Origin: Candidatus Thiodiazotropha sp. (ex Monitilora ramsayi)
GTDB lineage: Bacteria > Pseudomonadota > Gammaproteobacteria > Chromatiales > Chromatiaceae
NCBI GenBank assembly: GCA_025655595.1
Contig: JAHXIO010000001.1
Coordinates: forward strand, 496,001-560,000
Reading direction: 5' to 3'
DNA: 64,000 nt
The position numbers and the translations under genes are program-made. Position 1 is the first letter of the stretch, and the number at the start of each line of letters is the position of its first letter. The notes below the pieces were generated by a model. It had not been told where the DNA came from. It did not search any database and saw only the letters and a program-made list of their open reading frames with translations. Shown piece by piece: positions 1 through 34,220 of this stretch.

Positions 1-2902
1 TAATCTTTTCTTTACCTCGGATCGCTACGATCTCTCCGCCGTGGGCCGTATGAAGTTCAACCGGCGCCTGGGCAGAGAGGATGAAGAGGGAGAGGGCGTA
101 CTCTCCAAAGAGGATATCGTCGATGTCCTGAGAGAGCTGATCGACATCCGTAACGGCAATGGTGTGGTGGATGACATCGATCACCTGGGCAATCGCCGTA
201 TCCGTTGTGTCGGTGAGATGGCGGAAAATCAGTTCCGCGTCGGTTTGGTCCGTGTGGAGCGTGCTGTAAAAGAGCGTCTGACGCAGGCTGAGTCAGAGGG
301 GTTGATGCCTCAGGAGATGATCAACGCCAAACCGGTTTCAGCCGCGATCAAGGAGTTTTTCGGTTCCAGCCAGTTGTCCCAGTTCATGGATCAGAACAAT
401 CCGCTTTCCGAGGTGACGCACAAGCGTCGCGTCTCGGCCTTGGGCCCGGGCGGCCTTGCTCGTGAGCGTGCCGGCTTCGAGGTGCGTGACGTGCATCCCA
501 CCCATTACGGTCGAGTCTGTCCCATCGAGACCCCTGAGGGTCCCAACATCGGTTTGATCAATTCGTTGGCTGTTTATGCCAGGACCAACAGATACGGTTT
601 TCTGGAAACCCCTTATCGCAAGGTTGTGGACGGTAAGGTTACCGACCAGATCGACTATCTCTCGGCCATCGAAGAGGGGCGTTTCGTCATCGCGCAGGCC
701 AACGCGCAACTCGATACCAAAGGTAAACTGACTGACGAGCTCGTCTCCTCACGTTTCCAGAATGAGTTCACCCTGTCCACACCGGACAAGGTGCAGTATA
801 TGGACGTATCGCCCAAGCAGATCGTATCCGTGGCGGCTGCGTTGATCCCCTTCCTGGAACATGATGATGCCAACCGCGCACTCATGGGTTCAAACATGCA
901 GCGTCAGGCGGTGCCGGTATTGCGCGCTGAAAAGCCCCTGGTGGGTACCGGTATCGAACGCGTTGTGGCAGTCGATTCAGGTGTCACCGTCGTAGCCAAA
1001 CGTGGCGGTGAGATCGAGTCGGTCGATGCTGCGCGTATCGTTGTACGGGTCAATGATGATGAGACGGAAGCCGGTGAGCCCGGCGTCGATATCTACAATC
1101 TGACCAAGTATACCCGTTCCAACCAGAATACCTGTATCAACCAGCGTCCGCTGGTCAACGTGGGTGACATGATCGCACGCGGTGACGTCTTGGCGGATGG
1201 CCCGTCAACAGATATGGGTGAGTTGGCCCTGGGTCAGAACCTGCGTGTCGCCTTCATGCCCTGGAATGGATACAACTTTGAGGACTCCATTCTCATCTCT
1301 GAGCGCGTGGTGGAAGAGGATCGTTTCACCTCTATCCATATCGAAGAGATGACCTGTATGGCCCGCGACACCAAGCTGGGTCCGGAGGAGATCACCGGCG
1401 ATATCCCGAATGTGGGTGAGGCTGCGCTCTCCAAACTGGACGAGTCAGGTATCGTCTATATCGGTGCCGAAGTGCGTGAGGGCGATATTCTAGTTGGTAA
1501 AGTAACACCCAAGGGTGAGTCGCAGCTGACACCGGAAGAGAAGTTGCTCCGCGCCATCTTCGGTGAAAAAGCCTCCGACGTGAAGGATACCTCCTTGCGA
1601 GTCTCGTCCGGCATGGTCGGTACGGTGATCGATGTTCAGGTCTTTACCCGCGATGGTGTTGAAAAAGATGCCCGTGCCCTGCAGATCGAAGAGGTCGAGC
1701 TGGATCGGGTGCGCAAGGATCTGGATGACCAGTTGCGCATCATGGAAGACGACACCTTCAGCCGTATCGAGAAGATGCTGTTGAGCAAGATCGTCGACGG
1801 CGGCCCCAATAAGATCAAGGCTGGCACCAAAGTTACCAAGAACTATCTCTCTGAGCTCGAGCGTGATAAGTGGTTGGAGATCCGTCTTCGCAATGAAGAA
1901 GCGGCGGCTCAGCTGGAGACGATCGCCGAGCAGATCAGGGCGCAACGGGAAGAGTTCCGCAATAAGTTTGAAGAGAAGAAACGTAAGTTGACCGCTGGTG
2001 ACGACCTGGCGCCGGGCGTCTTGAAAATGGTCAAGGTCTACGTGGCGGTCAAGCGCCGTGTGCAACCGGGTGACAAAATGGCCGGCCGTCACGGTAACAA
2101 GGGTGTTATCTCCACTATTGTGCCAGTCGAGGATATGCCGTTCGATGAGAACGGTGAACCTGTGGATATCGTTTTGAATCCGCTGGGCGTACCTTCCCGA
2201 ATGAATGTCGGCCAGGTACTGGAGACCCATCTGGGGTTTGCCGCCAAGGGCGTAGGTCGTCGTATCGGCGCCATGCTGGAAGAGCAGGCAAAGATGACCG
2301 AACTGCGTAAGTTCCTGGACAAGGTTTACAACACCAGCGGTAAGCGGGAAGACATCAAATCCCTCACTGACGATGAGGTGGTGGCCATGTGTCGGAACCT
2401 GCGTGGCGGCGTACCCATGGCAACACCGGTCTTTGACGGTGCGCACGAGACCGAAGTGAAGCAGATGTTGGAACTGGCAGGGCTACCTGAAAGCGGACAG
2501 TGCAAGCTGTTCGACGGTCGTACCGGCGAGTCCTTTGAGCGCGATGTCACGGTTGGCTATATGTATATGCTCAAGCTCAACCATCTGGTCGATGACAAGA
2601 TGCACGCCCGTTCAACCGGTCCGTACAGCCTGGTCACCCAGCAACCCCTGGGCGGTAAGGCGCAGTTCGGCGGTCAGCGTTTCGGTGAGATGGAGGTCTG
2701 GGCCCTGGAAGCCTATGGTGCCGCCTACACCTTGCAGGAGATGCTCACCGTCAAGTCGGACGACGTCAACGGACGTACCCGTATGTACAAGAACATCGTT
2801 GACGGCAACCATCAGATGGAAGCCGGTATGCCCGAATCGTTCAATGTACTGGTCAAAGAGATTCGATCTCTGGCCATCAATATCGAATTGGAACAGGACT
2901 GA
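1..2902 (+). CDS. rpoB: RNA polymerase beta subunit (3' part, start outside window)
   Basis: The gene encodes the beta subunit of RNA polymerase, which forms one side of the catalytic cleft and holds the rifampicin pocket. The frame is open from base 2, so the start lies upstream; about 966 residues are visible of the roughly 1,350 usual in this class. The rifampicin cluster near bases 362-460 ([17 protein letters not shown], then [13 protein letters not shown]) carries the drug-sensitive E. coli residues. The [11 protein letters not shown] motif, the [12 protein letters not shown] motif and the C-terminal [18 protein letters not shown] clamp segment are all present. rpoC follows after 42 bases, the usual rpoBC arrangement. 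Confidence 0.98.
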
Positions 2903-2944
2903 GGCACTGACTCAGGTCAGTAACCGAATGCAGGAGAGACGATC

Positions 2945-7159
<4,215 letters not shown>

Positions 7160-7185
7160 ACCGACAGGGACAGTCAGTCAGTCCC

Positions 7186-7214
7186 TTGACAAGCGTATGG
7201 AGCAGGCATAGAAT
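7186..7214 (+). promoter_or_regulatory. sigma70-type promoter of the str operon
   Basis: A full-consensus -35 box TTGACA (7186-7191) is followed by a 17-base spacer and the -10 box TAGAAT (7209-7214). Both spacing and sequence are near ideal. Transcription would start near 7221, about 200 bases upstream of rpsL and only about 25 bases after the rpoC stop codon. Confidence 0.8.
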
Positions 7215-7227
7215 GCGCGCTCCCTAG

Positions 7228-7251
7228 ACAGGCCGGCCCTCGCCGGCCTGT
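7228..7251 (+). terminator. GC-rich hairpin: rpoBC terminator or 5' stem of the str leader
   Basis: A perfect 10-base-pair stem (ACAGGCCGGC with GCCGGCCTGT) closes a 4-base loop (CCTC) and is followed by CGTTTCTG, a weak U tract. It may terminate rpoBC transcripts. It also lies just downstream of the predicted start of the str promoter, so it would form the first structure in that RNA. The sequence does not decide between the two roles. Confidence 0.55.
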
Positions 7252-7419
7252 CGTTTCTGATACACAAAGCAGCGGCTAAGCCGTTGTTGGGTAAAGCTAT
7301 TTCAGCCAGAGAAATCGGGCTGCCCTGAGTGCAAAGCACGAGAGCATGGGTAGGTCGTCGTTCTTCGGCTTTTTTTAATGCTTTATCACAAACATCAACG
7401 TCCCTGGAGACGGAGTTAG

Positions 7420-7794
7420 ATGGCGACAATTAACCAACTGGTGCGTAAGCCCAGGAAACGTAAAGTCCAGAAGAGTAACGTACCGGCACTGGAGGCCTGT
7501 CCGCAGCGTCGCGGCGTCTGTACGCGTGTCTATACCACGACACCGAAAAAGCCGAACTCAGCCTTGCGTAAGGTTGCGCGTGTGCGTTTGACCAATGGTT
7601 ACGAAGTGACCAGCTATATCGGTGGTGAGGGACATAACCTTCAGGAGCACTCGGTGGTGTTGATTCGTGGTGGTCGTGTAAAGGATCTGCCTGGTGTCCG
7701 CTACCACACGGTGCGCGGCAGCCTGGATACGTCGGGTGTAGAGAAACGTCGTCAAGGACGTTCCAAGTACGGCGCCAAGCGACCGAAAGGTTAA
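7420..7794 (+). CDS. rpsL: 30S ribosomal protein S12
   Basis: S12 sits at the decoding centre of the 30S subunit and affects translational accuracy. The 124 residues equal the E. coli length. The loops [11 protein letters not shown] and [13 protein letters not shown] are intact, with lysines at both classical streptomycin-resistance positions, so the protein looks streptomycin-sensitive. The ATG start has GGAGACGGAG upstream at 7407-7415. It is the first gene of the str operon, with a leader of about 200 bases behind a strong promoter. Confidence 0.99.
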
Positions 7795-7829
7795 CGGTTT
7801 CTAAGTACAAGATTTATTGACAGGGTTGA

Positions 7830-8309
<480 letters not shown>

Positions 8310-8356
8310 GCATAACCCTTAACCCTAACTTAGCTCTTTAAAAACAGGTTTGTAAC

Positions 8357-10453
<2,097 letters not shown>

Positions 10454-28609: not shown

Positions 28610-29167
28610 CTAGGCAAGGTTCGAGTTTAGTGATGCCAGATACTTGGACCAATCAAACAAAGGACCGGGATCTGTTTTTCGACCGGGAGAGATGGCGGCA
28701 TGACTTGTTATCCTGCTTTGGTCTATAGCCGGAAAGTGGGTGATGATAGCCCGTGTAGCCCGAGTCAATGTTCGGTACTGCTCTTCTGTGAAGGGCTGGC
28801 CGTCCGCTCCTTCCAGTTCGATACCGATAGAGAAGTCGTTGCACTGCTCCCTGCCACAATAGTTAGAGATACCCGCATGCCATGCGCGTTGGTTGAGGGG
28901 GACGTACTGTATGAGCCTGCCGTCACGACGTATCAGGAGATGGCAGGAGACCTTTAACTGGTGGATCTCCCGGAAATAGGGGTGTGCATCGGGGTCGAGT
29001 CGATTCATAAAAAAATCATCGATCCATGGCCCGCCGAATTCACCGGGTGGCAGGCTGATGCTGTGGATCACCAACAGGTCGATCTGTGTGCCTGACGGCC
29101 GTTCATCCCTGTTTTCACACAATCGGTACTCGGCTTGATCGAGTAAAATATCTTTATTACCGATCAA
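28610..29167 (-). CDS. ampD: 1,6-anhydro-N-acetylmuramyl-L-alanine amidase AmpD
   Basis: AmpD is a cytoplasmic zinc amidase that splits anhydro-muropeptides during cell-wall recycling. The 185 residues keep the zinc ligands H35, H156 and D166 and the catalytic glutamate E117 (GIELEG). The ISLPPGEFGGPWID, RAWHAG and PGRKTDPGP segments are also present. The start must be TTG at 29167, because its bases overlap the CBS-gene stop (TTGA) and the next ATG would cut off H35. This makes it translationally coupled to the upstream genes. ampE lies 78 bases downstream. Confidence 0.95.
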   Translation of the reverse strand: MIGNKDILLDQAEYRLCENRDERPSGTQIDLLVIHSISLPPGEFGGPWIDDFFMNRLDPDAHPYFREIHQLKVSCHLLIRRDGRLIQYVPLNQRAWHAGISNYCGREQCNDFSIGIELEGADGQPFTEEQYRTLTRATRAIITHFPAIDQSRITSHAAISPGRKTDPGPLFDWSKYLASLNSNLA

Positions 29168-29580
29168 GTTGCCGTCCGTTTGCGATTGAGCCCTTTCAGC
29201 ACCATGTCGGTGTAGCTGACGATACCCACCACTTCGCCATTTTTAACCACAGGCGCACGCGAAAGATCAAAACGGCTGAATATCCTGGCGCAGTAGCGGA
29301 TGTCCATATCGGGTGAGACGGTCAGTGCAGGCTTTGTCATGATCTCGTAGATATTGACCCGTTCTGGAGCCCGATCCACGGCAAGAACCTGACGTGCGAT
29401 ATCCGACAATGTCACCAGACCGAACTCATCGTCCTCATTGCGTTTTTTCACAATCAGGCATTTCGTCTCAACGTGCAGCATGTTTTTGTCCAACGCCATT
29501 TGTACCGTATCCATGCCATCGACCATGTCAAAATCGGCTTTCATGACATCCCTGACCCGAATGACTTCATGCTCGCTCAT
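29164..29580 (-). CDS. CBS-domain pair protein
   Basis: The 138-residue soluble protein is almost wholly a CBS pair. The first repeat is about residues 8-65 (VRDVMKADFDMVDGMDTVQM, then GLVTLSDIARQV) and the second about 75-132 (IYEIMTKPALTVSPDMDI, then GIVSYTDMVLKGL). Such pairs bind adenosyl ligands (AMP, ATP, SAM) and control partner proteins, often ion transporters. It overlaps both the PII-like gene upstream and ampD downstream by 4 bases. This placement suggests it senses a nucleotide for the DUF1538 transporter, which is inference. Confidence 0.88.
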   Translation of the reverse strand: MSEHEVIRVRDVMKADFDMVDGMDTVQMALDKNMLHVETKCLIVKKRNEDDEFGLVTLSDIARQVLAVDRAPERVNIYEIMTKPALTVSPDMDIRYCARIFSRFDLSRAPVVKNGEVVGIVSYTDMVLKGLNRKRTAT

Positions 29581-29927
29581 AGCTCCTCCTCGATAACTTG
29601 TGACAGTGTCTGGATCTGGTGGCTGACGCCTACCGCATCCTCGATGTCGATTTGAAAGGCAATACCGGTGCCGGGCTGTTCGTCAAAATGGCCGGCCTCT
29701 GCGATCTCTTCCAGGATGGTTCGACAGAGATGCTCCTCGACCAGCAGCATGAGCACGTCCCTCTGGGTCTCCAGTGTTAGGCCAAAAAATGTTTTCGACT
29801 GGCTTACGCCTTCACCTCTTGCCTGGTTGATGACCGTAGACCCGGTTGCACCGGCCGCCCGGGCGGCCTCCAGCACCTTGTCGGTAGTGCTATCCTCCAC
29901 CAGGGCGATGATGAGTTTAAAGTGCAT
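29577..29927 (-). CDS. PII-like (GlnB-fold) regulatory protein
   Basis: The 116 residues resemble the PII superfamily: MHFKLIIALVEDSTTDKVLE, then AARAAGATGSTVINQARGEG and VLMLLVEEHLCRTILEEI. The classical T-loop uridylylation tyrosine region is not recognisable, so it is a PII-like relative rather than GlnB or GlnK. Such proteins usually bind to and gate a membrane transporter encoded beside them. Here the neighbours are two DUF1538 membrane proteins 19 bases upstream and a CBS protein overlapping downstream. Confidence 0.82.
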   Translation of the reverse strand: MHFKLIIALVEDSTTDKVLEAARAAGATGSTVINQARGEGVSQSKTFFGLTLETQRDVLMLLVEEHLCRTILEEIAEAGHFDEQPGTGIAFQIDIEDAVGVSHQIQTLSQVIEEEL

Positions 29928-29945
29928 GATGATTTCCTCGAAATA

Positions 29946-30716
29946 TCACTGTTTACGCTTATTAGATCGCCATTCGCTCAATTGTGCGTATGCCATGACG
30001 GACATGATGGGAAATAGGCTGGCAAATGCGATCAGGCCGAAGCCGTCCAGTAGCGGGTTGCGACCGGGAATGTTACTCGAAAGTCCCAGTCCCAGGGCTG
30101 CGACCAGCGGTACCGTGACAGTGGATGTGGTGACACCGCCGGAATCGTAGGCAAGCGCGATAATAGTGCGTGGGGCGAACAGGGTTTGTATGATCACCAC
30201 CACATAGCCGGCCATGATATACCAGTGCAGCGGTGTGCCGCTGATGATGCGGTAGCTGCCTAGAGCAATTCCCAGGGCCACCCCTATCGCGACAGAGATG
30301 CGCAGTCCCCACTGGCTGATGGCACCGCCCGAAACCTGGTTGGCCTTGATTGCCACGGCGATCAGCGAGGGTTCCGCGATGGTCGTCGAGAAACCGATAC
30401 TGGCTGCAAACAGGTAGACCCAGAAATAGTGGTGCCAACTGACTGTTATCGTCTCTTTGCCAATACCGAGGAGCTCCGGAGATGTCAGCTGAGCGGCCAT
30501 CAACTTGCCCAGTGGGAACAGCGCCAGATCGAGACCCTCCAGAAAAAACACCAGGCCCAACAAGACCATTAGCAGGCCGATCATGACCTCTTTGGGGTTC
30601 TTTACCGGGCGCCTGAGTACAAGGAACTGAAAGCCGAACAATATGCCGGCGATGGGAAGCACATCGAGTATCGTGTCGGCCAGGACCTGAAGAAAGTGGA
30701 TCAGTATCTCACTCAT
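29946..30716 (-). CDS. DUF1538 membrane protein, second subunit (UmpB-like)
   Basis: The 256-residue polytopic membrane protein belongs to DUF1538. It has the family block [20 protein letters not shown] followed by [16 protein letters not shown], and a shorter block [17 protein letters not shown]. It is a paralogue of the gene just upstream, with which it overlaps by 4 bases (30713-30716). From memory, a DUF1538 pair called UmpA/UmpB from Halomonas was reported as a two-component sodium/proton antiporter. The ion specificity here is unknown. Confidence 0.85.
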
Positions 30717-31444
30717 AGCAGCATGCCGTAACCCATGACGAAGATCATTGGTGTCAAAGAGGCAAAAGCGATCAGACCGAAACCGTCGGTCATGGGATTT
30801 CTACCCTTGATACTCGATGCCAGTCCAACGCCAAGCGCCGTAACCAGCGGTACGGTGATGGTTGACGTGGTGACCCCTCCGGAGTCATAAGCGATGCCGA
30901 TAATCTCTTCCGGCGCCAGTGCTGTCATGATGACCACGCCCAGGTAGCCGACAATGATTAAATACTGTACCGGCCAGCCTTTGATGATACGAAGCACTCC
31001 CAGCACGATGGCAAAGCCCACAGAGACTGCAACCGTATAGCGAAGACCATTCGCGTAGTCATCCTGTGATTCTAGATCTGGCTCGATCATGCCGCCATTG
31101 GCAGCTATTATTGAGGCTTCTTCGGCGATCTTGATAAGCGCGGGTTCGGCGACCGTGGTTCCGAAACCCAATGCAAAGGCAAATACAAGGAGCCAGCTCA
31201 GGCTCCCTTTACGGGCAAAATCCCAGGCCATGCCTTCTCCAAGGGGAAAAAGGGCCATATTCAGTCCCTGGATGAACAGGCTCAGTCCGAGCACAACCAG
31301 GAGGGTGCCTGCCAGGAGAGCACCGAGATTGGGTATAGGTTGTTGCAGGACGAAGAGCTGAAAGAAACCGATTACAGCCACTATCGGCGCCAAATCTCGA
31401 AGACTGTCCAGGAGAGATCTGCCGAAGTGCCTGAGCAAATGCAT
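30713..31444 (-). CDS. DUF1538 membrane protein, first subunit (UmpA-like)
   Basis: The 243-residue membrane protein is the first gene of the minus-strand operon. It carries [36 protein letters not shown] and [19 protein letters not shown], the same three blocks as its neighbour. The two genes probably encode the two halves that are fused in double-domain DUF1538 proteins elsewhere. No clear ribosome site precedes the ATG at 31444. The conserved glutamate in the AEP motif and the DSGG aspartate are candidate ion ligands, which is inference. Confidence 0.85.
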
Positions 31445-31880: not shown

Positions 31881-34220
31881 ATGTCAGGACAAGACAACAT
31901 TATTACATTCGGCTCAGCAGTGCCTCGTCGAAACAACATTTCACTTGACGTCAACGGACGCAGGATTGCGGCCGAGTGCCGTAATCTGATTGCGCAGACG
32001 CTGCCCAAGCTCATGGGTGGCCTGTTTGAAAATCTCGATGATGCCCTCTACGAGATGGCCAACAAGTCTGACAGTAACACCCTGCAGAATATCTATTTCG
32101 ACTCCATGCGCGAACTGCGCAAACAGCGCAATAATATTGATCGCGCTCTGAACCAGGAGATCCTTAGAGTCTATGATCGCTTTTGGGAAACGGGCGAAGT
32201 CAGCGTCTCACAACCCAGTCTGGATGAGCTTAGCCACGATACGGAGATGGCGCTGCTCGACAATGAAGAGCTCGAGGACTCCTTAGCCATCACCAACATG
32301 GTCTCCAAGGCGGAGAATCGCTTCACTCGTGAAATCTACGCCATGGGCCAGCGATTTGCCTACATCATCGGTGGCGGTCATATCGATGAACGTTTTGCCC
32401 AGCAGACACCGCTGTCCCCTGCGGTCCTCTGCGGTGCATTTCAGAATGCCATGAGCAACGTGCCAGTGGAGTTACCCGTAAAACTGGTCGTCTACAAGCT
32501 GTTTGACCGTCATATCATGCACTTTATCGGCGGGCTCTATGACGAGATCAATATCCTGCTGGGCAAAGCAGGAGTGATTCCCAAGCTGACGCCCAAGGTT
32601 CGACGCAATCCCGTATCCCCTGTGATGGTGCGTGGGGATGGCGGTGAGAGTCAGCTTGCAGGGGAGTCGTCCTATCTGACGGATCATGCAAGTCAGTCGG
32701 TCTACACCACCTCGCCACAGAGTACTGAAGTGCAGGGTGAAGTCTTCAACGCTCTCCAGCAGCTGCTTGGTGTGCGGCGTGCCCGGGTATCCGATAGTGG
32801 TGCCGCTTCCAGTTTGATGCTCACGGCACCTCAAGGCACCGTGCCGGTAATCGATACGGGTGAGTTGCTGGGCGCACTGAATGCGATTCAGCAATCAAAT
32901 GTGGTGATGCTGCCCCAGGGCAGGCGTGCCACACAGCCCCTGAGCCCGGATCAGATGCGTGCTCAACTGGTCAGTGATCTACAGATTGCTAAAGAAGGTC
33001 ATGTTACCCGGGCCTTGGGAGATGCGGACAACGACACCATCGATGTCATCTCCATGCTGTTCGAATTCATCCTGGATGACTACAGCCTGCCGGATGCCAT
33101 GAAGGCGCTGATCAGCCGCTTGCAGATACCGATGCTCAAAGTGGCCATCATCGACAAGACATTCTTCAGTAAGAAGATCCACCCGGCCCGCCGGCTTCTC
33201 AATACCCTGGCGCAGGCAGCCGTCGGCTGGAACGATACGGGTGACCGGGCAAACGATGTCCTCTACAACAAGATAGAGTCTGTCGTAAAACGTGTGCTCA
33301 ACGAGTTTCAGGATGATCCCGCGATCTTCTCGGAACTGGATGATGAGTTCAGTGCCTGGTGGCAGCAGGAACAGCGCGGGGCGCAGATCGCCGAGCAACG
33401 TACCAATCAGGTAACCCGTGGCAAGGAGCAATTGAGATCTGCCAAGCAGACGGTTGTTCATGAGTTGAATGAACGTTTGCGAGTCCAGCAGGTAGTGCCT
33501 GAGGCTGTGATGTCGCTGTTGGAAGATGGCTGGAAAGATGTTTTATTGCTGAACTATCTAAGACAGGGGGCTGACAGCAAGGAGTGGAAGGAATCACTGG
33601 AAGTGGTCGATCGGTTGCTCTGGAGCGTACAACCCAAATCGGACTATGCGGAACGTCAGAAATTGCTGCGTGGCATCCCTGAACTGTTGAGGAATTTGCG
33701 TGAGCGCCTCAACAGTATCTCATTCGACCAGCATAAAATGGCACGCCTGTTTAAAGAGCTGCAGAATTGCCATATCGGCTGTTTGCGGGGGGGCGATCCC
33801 AATCTCATGGGGGGTGCGGGCACTAATCCCTCCCCATCAAGCGAAGTCCATTTTCCCGATAGCCAGATGGTTTCAGGTGAAAGCCAAATGAGTCAGCTGG
33901 CGGACGAAGCAGTCGATGAGCAGGACGAGTTCTCCCGTCAGGCGAGTGAACTGAAGATCGGCACATGGCTGGAGATGCAGGACGGATCCGTGAAGAATCG
34001 CGTCAAGCTCTCCTGGAAAAGTAACGTGACCGATACCTATATATTCGTCAACCGGAAGGGTATGAAGGCCATGGAATTGACCTCTGCCGGCCTGGCGAAA
34101 CGATTCCGTGAAGAGACCGCACAGCTGGTCGAAGTGTCGGATACACCGATTATCGACCGTGCGTTGGATGCTATGCTCACTGCTTTGAAAAACACTTCCC
34201 CATCTTCCGCTTCAGCCTAG
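31881..34220 (+). CDS. DUF1631 family protein
   Basis: This 779-residue cytoplasmic protein matches the DUF1631 family. The start region reads NGRRIAAECRNLIAQTLPKL, the central part is largely helical, and the C-terminus has a beta-rich PilZ-like segment (LKIGTWLEMQDGSVKNRVKL, then YIFVNRKGMKAMELTSAGLA). The PilZ RxxxR and DxSxxG signature is not obvious, so cyclic-di-GMP binding is uncertain. There is no signal peptide or membrane helix. The ATG at 31881 lacks a strong ribosome site. The gene is followed by a separate promoter for the FKBP-nadC pair. Confidence 0.8.
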   Translation: MSGQDNIITFGSAVPRRNNISLDVNGRRIAAECRNLIAQTLPKLMGGLFENLDDALYEMANKSDSNTLQNIYFDSMRELRKQRNNIDRALNQEILRVYDRFWETGEVSVSQPSLDELSHDTEMALLDNEELEDSLAITNMVSKAENRFTREIYAMGQRFAYIIGGGHIDERFAQQTPLSPAVLCGAFQNAMSNVPVELPVKLVVYKLFDRHIMHFIGGLYDEINILLGKAGVIPKLTPKVRRNPVSPVMVRGDGGESQLAGESSYLTDHASQSVYTTSPQSTEVQGEVFNALQQLLGVRRARVSDSGAASSLMLTAPQGTVPVIDTGELLGALNAIQQSNVVMLPQGRRATQPLSPDQMRAQLVSDLQIAKEGHVTRALGDADNDTIDVISMLFEFILDDYSLPDAMKALISRLQIPMLKVAIIDKTFFSKKIHPARRLLNTLAQAAVGWNDTGDRANDVLYNKIESVVKRVLNEFQDDPAIFSELDDEFSAWWQQEQRGAQIAEQRTNQVTRGKEQLRSAKQTVVHELNERLRVQQVVPEAVMSLLEDGWKDVLLLNYLRQGADSKEWKESLEVVDRLLWSVQPKSDYAERQKLLRGIPELLRNLRERLNSISFDQHKMARLFKELQNCHIGCLRGGDPNLMGGAGTNPSPSSEVHFPDSQMVSGESQMSQLADEAVDEQDEFSRQASELKIGTWLEMQDGSVKNRVKLSWKSNVTDTYIFVNRKGMKAMELTSAGLAKRFREETAQLVEVSDTPIIDRALDAMLTALKNTSPSSASA

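Follow-up and report, generated by a model that had tools for sequence, protein, structure and literature searches.

A DUF1538 antiporter-family gene pair linked with PII-like and CBS-domain protein genes in a Candidatus Thiodiazotropha genome

Why would the genes for two membrane proteins of the DUF1538 family be packed together with the genes for a PII-like protein and a CBS-domain protein? The question is raised by a locus in a 64,000-nucleotide stretch (henceforth the window) of the genome of Candidatus Thiodiazotropha sp. (ex Monitilora ramsayi), for which the original prediction proposed a tightly packed four-gene array encoding an ion transporter with two dedicated regulators. The array itself was confirmed: the open reading frames (ORFs) and the sequence place the four genes on the minus strand in the order umpA-like, umpB-like, PII-like, and CBS, and all four proteins exceed their own Pfam cut-offs (22.6 bits for DUF1538, 25 for P-II, and 24 for CBS). 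The cassette comprises the following features.

30713..31444, minus strand: UmpA-like DUF1538 membrane subunit (243 amino acids; PF07556, 229.9 bits; NF041627, 369.2 bits; AlphaFold2 mean predicted local distance difference test score [pLDDT], 89.0)
29946..30716, minus strand: UmpB-like DUF1538 membrane subunit (256 amino acids; PF07556, 232.0 bits; NF041628, 354.7 bits)
29577..29927, minus strand: PII-like protein with a short T-loop (116 amino acids; PF00543, 46.8 bits; best Foldseek match 3lf0, E 6.1e-07)
29164..29580, minus strand: CBS-domain protein (138 amino acids; PF00571, 68.5 bits)

The umpA/umpB and PII-like/CBS junctions are both 4-base ATGA overlaps, as had been claimed, while the gap between umpB and the PII-like gene spans 18 bases instead of 19. 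As merely three PF00543 genes were found in the whole genome of 4.68 megabases and the arrangement recurs in 75/75 testable loci (see below), it is unlikely to have arisen by chance.

Identity of the membrane pair

The two DUF1538 proteins have the form of a UmpAB pair, that is, adjacent overlapping paralogues of approximately 240-270 amino acids. They share 50% identity with each other, and the closest NCBIfam models are those of UmpA and UmpB, which make up a Na,Li,K/H+ antiporter. The top named relative of the window UmpA (L034; 90% identity) was found in a Candidatus Thiodiazotropha genome. In Halomonas zhaodongensis, UmpAB was described as a Na+(Li+,K+)/H+ antiporter in the form of a hetero-dimer; its two genes overlap and are both required for the full effect, its two proteins co-immunoprecipitate, and it exchanges Na+, Li+, and K+ for H+ at pH 6.5 to 9.5 (PMC5484666). 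The Halomonas clone was a 4.2-kb (kilobase) fragment with one truncated and three intact ORFs, with neither a PII nor a CBS gene among them, so that the activity was observed in their absence (PMC5484666). By analogy within the family, the umpAB genes of the window would exchange Na+, Li+, or K+ for H+. Thus, the view of the DUF1538 pair as an ion transporter stands, albeit the activity had already been described for UmpAB (PMC5484666).

The AlphaFold2 model of UmpA, computed as a single chain, is confident (pLDDT 89.0; predicted TM-score 0.80). A Foldseek search of this model against the PDB gave no match at E <=0.001 (the best E was 0.6), none of the 50 matches listed exceeded a TM-score of 0.27 to the query, and no fold family was assigned on this basis. 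As one aligner and a single-chain input were used, the result is to be read as no solved structural relative having been found, and not as the proof of a new fold. A profile comparison of the two halves of UmpA found no inverted repeat. E100 is invariant (65/65 close and 57/57 distant domains) and D187 is kept in 65/65 close and 56/57 distant domains; in the model, the former sits at a helix break and the latter near the end of a helix that precedes another break. Being invariant, or nearly so, and placed at or near helix breaks, these two residues are the best candidates for an ion site. The conserved residues listed for the DUF1538 family, namely one Glu, two Asp, and three Arg (PMC5484666), probably correspond to those conserved in the family of this cassette.

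Conservation of the linkage

We examined 80 loci that were found by similarity to UmpA and UmpB and represent the best-scoring relatives of UmpA; this set is therefore biased towards close kin. A PII gene followed umpB in all of the 75 testable loci (five lacked enough downstream sequence), and a CBS gene was present in 72 of the 73 testable ones (seven were not testable), with a single exception in Magnetococcales (L107). The co-occurrence of DUF1538 with both regulators, for which the original prediction had suggested a survey, is thus conserved. The 4-base overlap was shared by 65/74 loci for PII/CBS, where the nearest in-frame start codon was taken as the CBS start, and by 49/74 loci for UmpA/UmpB. 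Outside the four cassette genes, no gene family recurred in more than 18/80 loci after clustering.

Two broader surveys, which have some genomes in common, gave a similar picture. Among 321 genomes of Gammaproteobacteria, 108 matched NF041627, and PII adjoined DUF1538 in 102 of them. This tally combines 95 genomes from the matches listed, 91 of which carry PII near UmpA, and 13 others. In the remaining four of the 95 (G327, G328, G333, and G483), the UmpAB genes are found at the end of a contig; PII is also near a contig end in the latter three, and 1.5 kb of other sequence precedes the PII-CBS pair in G327. As for the 13 further genomes, nine, fetched for another reason, have DUF1538 beside PII, PII is likewise adjacent in G434 and G521, and the UmpA match in G476 was not confirmed by PF07556. 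Among 299 genomes of Pseudomonadota, 116 matched DUF1538 and 109 of these possess at least one DUF1538 locus beside PII. Here, 84 genomes came from the matches listed (83/87 loci; 81 genomes in which one locus or more adjoins PII), and the remaining 32 were inspected by eye: 25 with PII (including G272, counted on a DUF1538 match under the cut-off), three in which a partial PII alone is visible (G172, G248, and G281, counted among the 109), two fragments (G218 and G236), and two without PII. Altogether, the association of PII with DUF1538 is strong.

The linkage extends beyond the close relatives of UmpAB. In a second DUF1538 subfamily, 10 of the first 12 loci fetched encode the membrane protein as a single fused chain, and PII follows in 12/12, sometimes as two copies, the second being a weak match; these loci had been selected through their own PII match, and no CBS gene was found at any of the 12. 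We also ran a tblastn search of plasmids by DUF1538 alone, which returned nine records, seven of which were examined (H2 and H8 were left out). At approximately 30% DUF1538 identity, PII stood directly after DUF1538 in 7/7 plasmid loci of Clostridia and Alphaproteobacteria, without CBS. The five loci of Clostridia (L203, L204, L206, L207, and L208) encode a double-DUF1538 chain and then one that carries a pair of PII domains, the first of which is weak in L203 (24 bits), while the two loci of Alphaproteobacteria encode a split DUF1538 pair, incomplete in its first half in L205, together with one PII. As PII occurs in both subfamilies and in both Clostridia and Pseudomonadota, and CBS in one branch, we regard PII as the general companion of the antiporter, to which one branch has added CBS. 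The two regulators are therefore not of equal standing.

Furthermore, the linkage outlasts rearrangement. The order is PII-CBS-fused UmpAB in L147, and a tandem of UmpA-UmpB-PII-CBS and fused UmpAB-PII-CBS, with one extra PII in front, was found in L229 (positions 4142-9097). L170 carries a mixed arrangement related to this tandem.

On the same strand after the CBS gene (window 29167-27027) lie ampD and then ampE-like and histidine-phosphatase genes, the first of these being as follows.

28610..29167, minus strand: ampD, 1,6-anhydro-N-acetylmuramyl-L-alanine amidase (TTG start; NF008758, 270 bits)

Because the CBS stop codon and the TTG start of ampD (29167) overlap as TTGA, the transcription unit may reach ampD. 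We rejected ampD as a member of the cassette, since an AmpD-like gene is downstream in merely 16/80 loci; it is possibly a read-through member outside the conserved cassette. Upstream of the cassette is a divergent DUF1631 gene (window 31881-34220), a relative of which occurs in 11/80 loci.

The PII-like and CBS proteins

The PII-like protein belongs to the PII superfamily by both its PF00543 score (46.8 against a cut-off of 25 bits) and its AlphaFold2 model (pLDDT 80.9), which shows the PII fold with a low-confidence T-loop and of which the top Foldseek matches in the PDB are PII structures (best 3lf0, E 6.1e-07). It gave no NCBIfam match, and its identity to the two canonical PII proteins that the genome encodes is 21% and 26%. 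The nucleotide-binding loops retain their glycines, and one Thr is kept as well. On the other hand, the T-loop region is five residues shorter than that of canonical PII, and the T-loop Tyr, the Lys of the GDGKIF motif, and two C-loop Arg are absent, which sets the protein apart from GlnB/GlnK. As we take the missing Tyr to be the uridylylation site, we infer from the sequence that the protein is not under uridylylation control. The missing Lys and Arg are presumably the ATP-phosphate contacts of PII structures, and the ligand may differ from Mg-ATP/2-oxoglutarate. Like other PII proteins, it is probably a trimer. It does not qualify as SbtB, which is encoded with SbtA, as its neighbours are DUF1538 and CBS genes.

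The CBS protein scores 68.5 bits against PF00571 (cut-off 24) as a whole, and the Asp of its first motif (D60) is at least 90% conserved.

PII-like genes were also detected away from the listed UmpA genes. Of the 117 PII matches listed for Gammaproteobacteria, 25 lay apart from any listed UmpA; 12 of these adjoin DUF1538 of the second subfamily, and four are those of the contig-end genomes G327, G328, G333, and G483. PII adjoins DUF1538 in G416 and a DUF1538 remnant in G478, lies at a contig start in G601, belongs to decayed copies in G549 and G533, and has no DUF1538 nearby in G510 and G584. Decayed copies of the cassette were seen in L134 and L135. In families of Pseudomonadota, a PII paralogue of the same clade stands apart from DUF1538 in L156, L158, L164-L166, L168, and L173-L175, and such paralogues are, as judged by eye, often near argB-, dus-, or mutS-looking genes; NAGK, the product of argB, is a PII target in cyanobacteria. 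In L133 (positions 4533-6912; G535 C1), a same-clade PII gene directly precedes that of a CPA2-type antiporter (Na_H_Exchanger, 205.6 bits, and TrkA_N) without DUF1538, and PII proteins of this clade may act with more than one family of antiporters. In L129 (positions 2025-4812; G390 C192), a Kef-like gene of 658 amino acids comes after a PII-CBS pair close to the end of a contig.

Proposed function and comparison with known systems

We propose, with a probability of roughly 0.6, that the cassette encodes a cation/proton antiporter that is restrained or tuned by the PII-like protein, with the CBS protein as a second sensor. UmpA and UmpB would together form the transport unit exchanging Na+/Li+/K+ against H+, and the PII-like protein would dock on its cytoplasmic face and restrain or tune it according to an adenine nucleotide or a related ligand. 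In one branch, the CBS protein would add a second nucleotide-sensing input on PII or UmpAB, and the outcome would be that sodium and pH homeostasis are matched to the energy or second-messenger state. As PII adjoins the exchanger in nearly all genomes examined, the latter is probably switched by the metabolic state. The contact, the ligand, and the direction of the PII effect are putative. Precedents of PII acting on transporters are AmtB, NrtABCD, UrtABCDE, and SbtA; GlnK restrains AmtB and AMP-bound SbtB restrains SbtA (PMC10710835; PMC8352866). UmpAB worked in Escherichia coli from a clone without PII and CBS genes, and inhibition or tuning is therefore more likely than an essential function.

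Several observations weigh against this proposal. The window UmpA and UmpB (369.2 and 354.7 bits) fall under the NCBIfam equivalog cut-offs of NF041627 (490 bits) and NF041628 (500 bits); no genome searched with NF041627 passed its cut-off of 490 either. In the Gammaproteobacteria survey, G568 has a partial DUF1538 without PII. In that of Pseudomonadota, no PII was found beside DUF1538 in G084, G116, G156, G093, and G245, and G121 has one DUF1538 locus with PII and one without. G084, G116, and G156 form one family, in which the PII-CBS pair is kept on a contig separate from UmpAB, and other genes directly follow umpB in G245. Conversely, 27 of the 111 Pseudomonadota PII matches above 94 bits were not near a listed DUF1538; four were later found adjoining one, leaving 23/111 without DUF1538 nearby, of which three are unlinked PII-CBS pairs and many others belong to two families. 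No natural PII-DUF1538 or PII-CBS fusion was found in the loci examined for fusions. As for the CBS protein, residues 78-127 alone pass PF00571 and the other CBS motif does not by itself; judged by eye, the second motif has a variable Asp. The claim that the regulators are dedicated therefore applies to most loci; given the paralogues elsewhere, the CPA2-type neighbour, and the DUF1538 loci without PII, we rejected the full dedication of PII to DUF1538 as an absolute statement. Two of these cases were also seen at the level of loci: the linkage is lost and the set of PII-CBS and UmpAB retained in L186, L187, L189, and L190 (G116 and G084), and L137 (positions 1602-5786; G121) has UmpAB with no PII match and two genes for CNNM/CorC-type CBS-domain proteins directly upstream.

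The hosts of the cassette bear on what is transported. Several of them, namely Thiodiazotropha (clam symbionts), Sedimenticola, and Methyloglobulus, are chemoautotrophs or methanotrophs, as would suit a UmpAB that carries another solute (for example, bicarbonate, or an organic anion together with Na+) and is gated by PII in the manner of SbtA-SbtB, the Na+/H+ exchange of the Halomonas protein being a side or lineage-specific activity. The DUF1538-PII pairing is also found, however, in Vibrio, Colwellia, and Clostridia, which are heterotrophs. SbtA-SbtB is indeed a well-studied pair of a transporter and a PII-like protein outside ammonium transport (PMC8352866; PMC10710835), but Na+(Li+,K+)/H+ antiport is what was measured in the UmpAB family (PMC5484666), and we consider transport of another solute unlikely. 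About equally unlikely, if not slightly more so, is a reading in which PII and CBS make no contact with UmpAB and instead regulate another enzyme or a transcription factor whose activity has to follow the expression of the antiporter. The PII paralogues beside argB-, dus-, and mutS-like genes, the lack of PII fusions in the loci examined, and the one family retaining PII-CBS unlinked from UmpAB are in line with such a target, while the PII-DUF1538 linkage persists in distant groups although the neighbours change, no other family exceeding 18/80 loci.

That PII and CBS are obligatory subunits for the assembly or stability of UmpAB, rather than ligand-dependent regulators, would account for the near-universal co-occurrence with overlapping genes. 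We regard this as improbable in the light of the Halomonas UmpAB, active in E. coli from a clone carrying neither gene as described (PMC5484666), of the DUF1538 loci without PII, and of the nucleotide-binding-loop glycines retained in the PII-like protein. A gene order that reflects nothing but shared ancestry or functionless hitch-hiking in an operon appears highly improbable: inheritance as a block is possible among close relatives, such as the best-scoring ones that make up the 80 loci, but the pairing recurs on plasmids whose DUF1538 is approximately 30% identical, across both subfamilies, and in fused, split, and reordered forms, and DUF1538 loci without PII have been few so far.

If the antiporter is restrained or tuned by PII as we propose, PII control, best known for nitrogen and carbon uptake, would tie pH and sodium homeostasis to the metabolic state through a sodium/proton antiporter. 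We tentatively extend this proposal, at somewhat less than even odds, to DUF1538 as a whole: a further class of PII-gated transporters in at least two phyla, the first cation/proton antiporters among them as far as searched, and with no solved relative found, in which PII would have lost the ATP-phosphate contacts and read another adenine ligand and CBS would be a second input in one branch. As UmpAB was reported as a hetero-dimer, it would have to assemble as three pairs, or the rule that the transporters targeted by PII are trimeric fails; the pairing questions the statement that PII proteins act on trimeric transporters only.

A characterised antiporter family travels with a PII-like sensor in distant bacteria, unmentioned in the paper that characterised it: a word search of the main text of PMC5484666 found none of PII, P-II, and CBS. 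A word search turned up neither CBS nor a PII protein in the bacterial open-access papers that name UmpAB ('PII' occurs once, within a sequence motif), none of the open-access papers listed joins DUF1538 or UmpAB with PII by title or the start of the abstract, and section 11 of PMC10710835 includes no PII-gated cation/proton antiporter among the targets of PII. The proposal of an ion transporter accompanied by two conserved genes for cytoplasmic regulators is supported, and the combination was not found described in the open-access literature; the parts are known, while the UmpAB-PII pairing and its breadth appear not to have been described before. The locus of Halomonas itself was sought in one class, one order, and three families, where nothing exceeded the UmpA cut-off.

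Compared with the UmpAB of H. zhaodongensis, the cassette has the same two overlapping paralogous DUF1538 genes, but the window proteins score under the NCBIfam equivalog cut-offs. SbtA-SbtB likewise joins the genes for a transporter and a PII-like protein in one operon, but SbtA is a trimer of another transporter family, for which no CBS partner is mentioned in the portion of PMC8352866 consulted. In AmtB-GlnK, a PII gene is linked with a membrane transporter gene as well (PMC10710835); GlnK is, however, a canonical PII, whereas in the PII-like protein of the window the T-loop region is shorter by five residues, and neither the uridylylated Tyr nor the C-loop Arg is present. Finally, nucleotide-binding CBS domains regulate ion flux in CorB/CNNM and other CBS-regulated transporters (PMC10710835); the CBS domains there are inside the transporter, whereas here the CBS protein stands by itself and is small.

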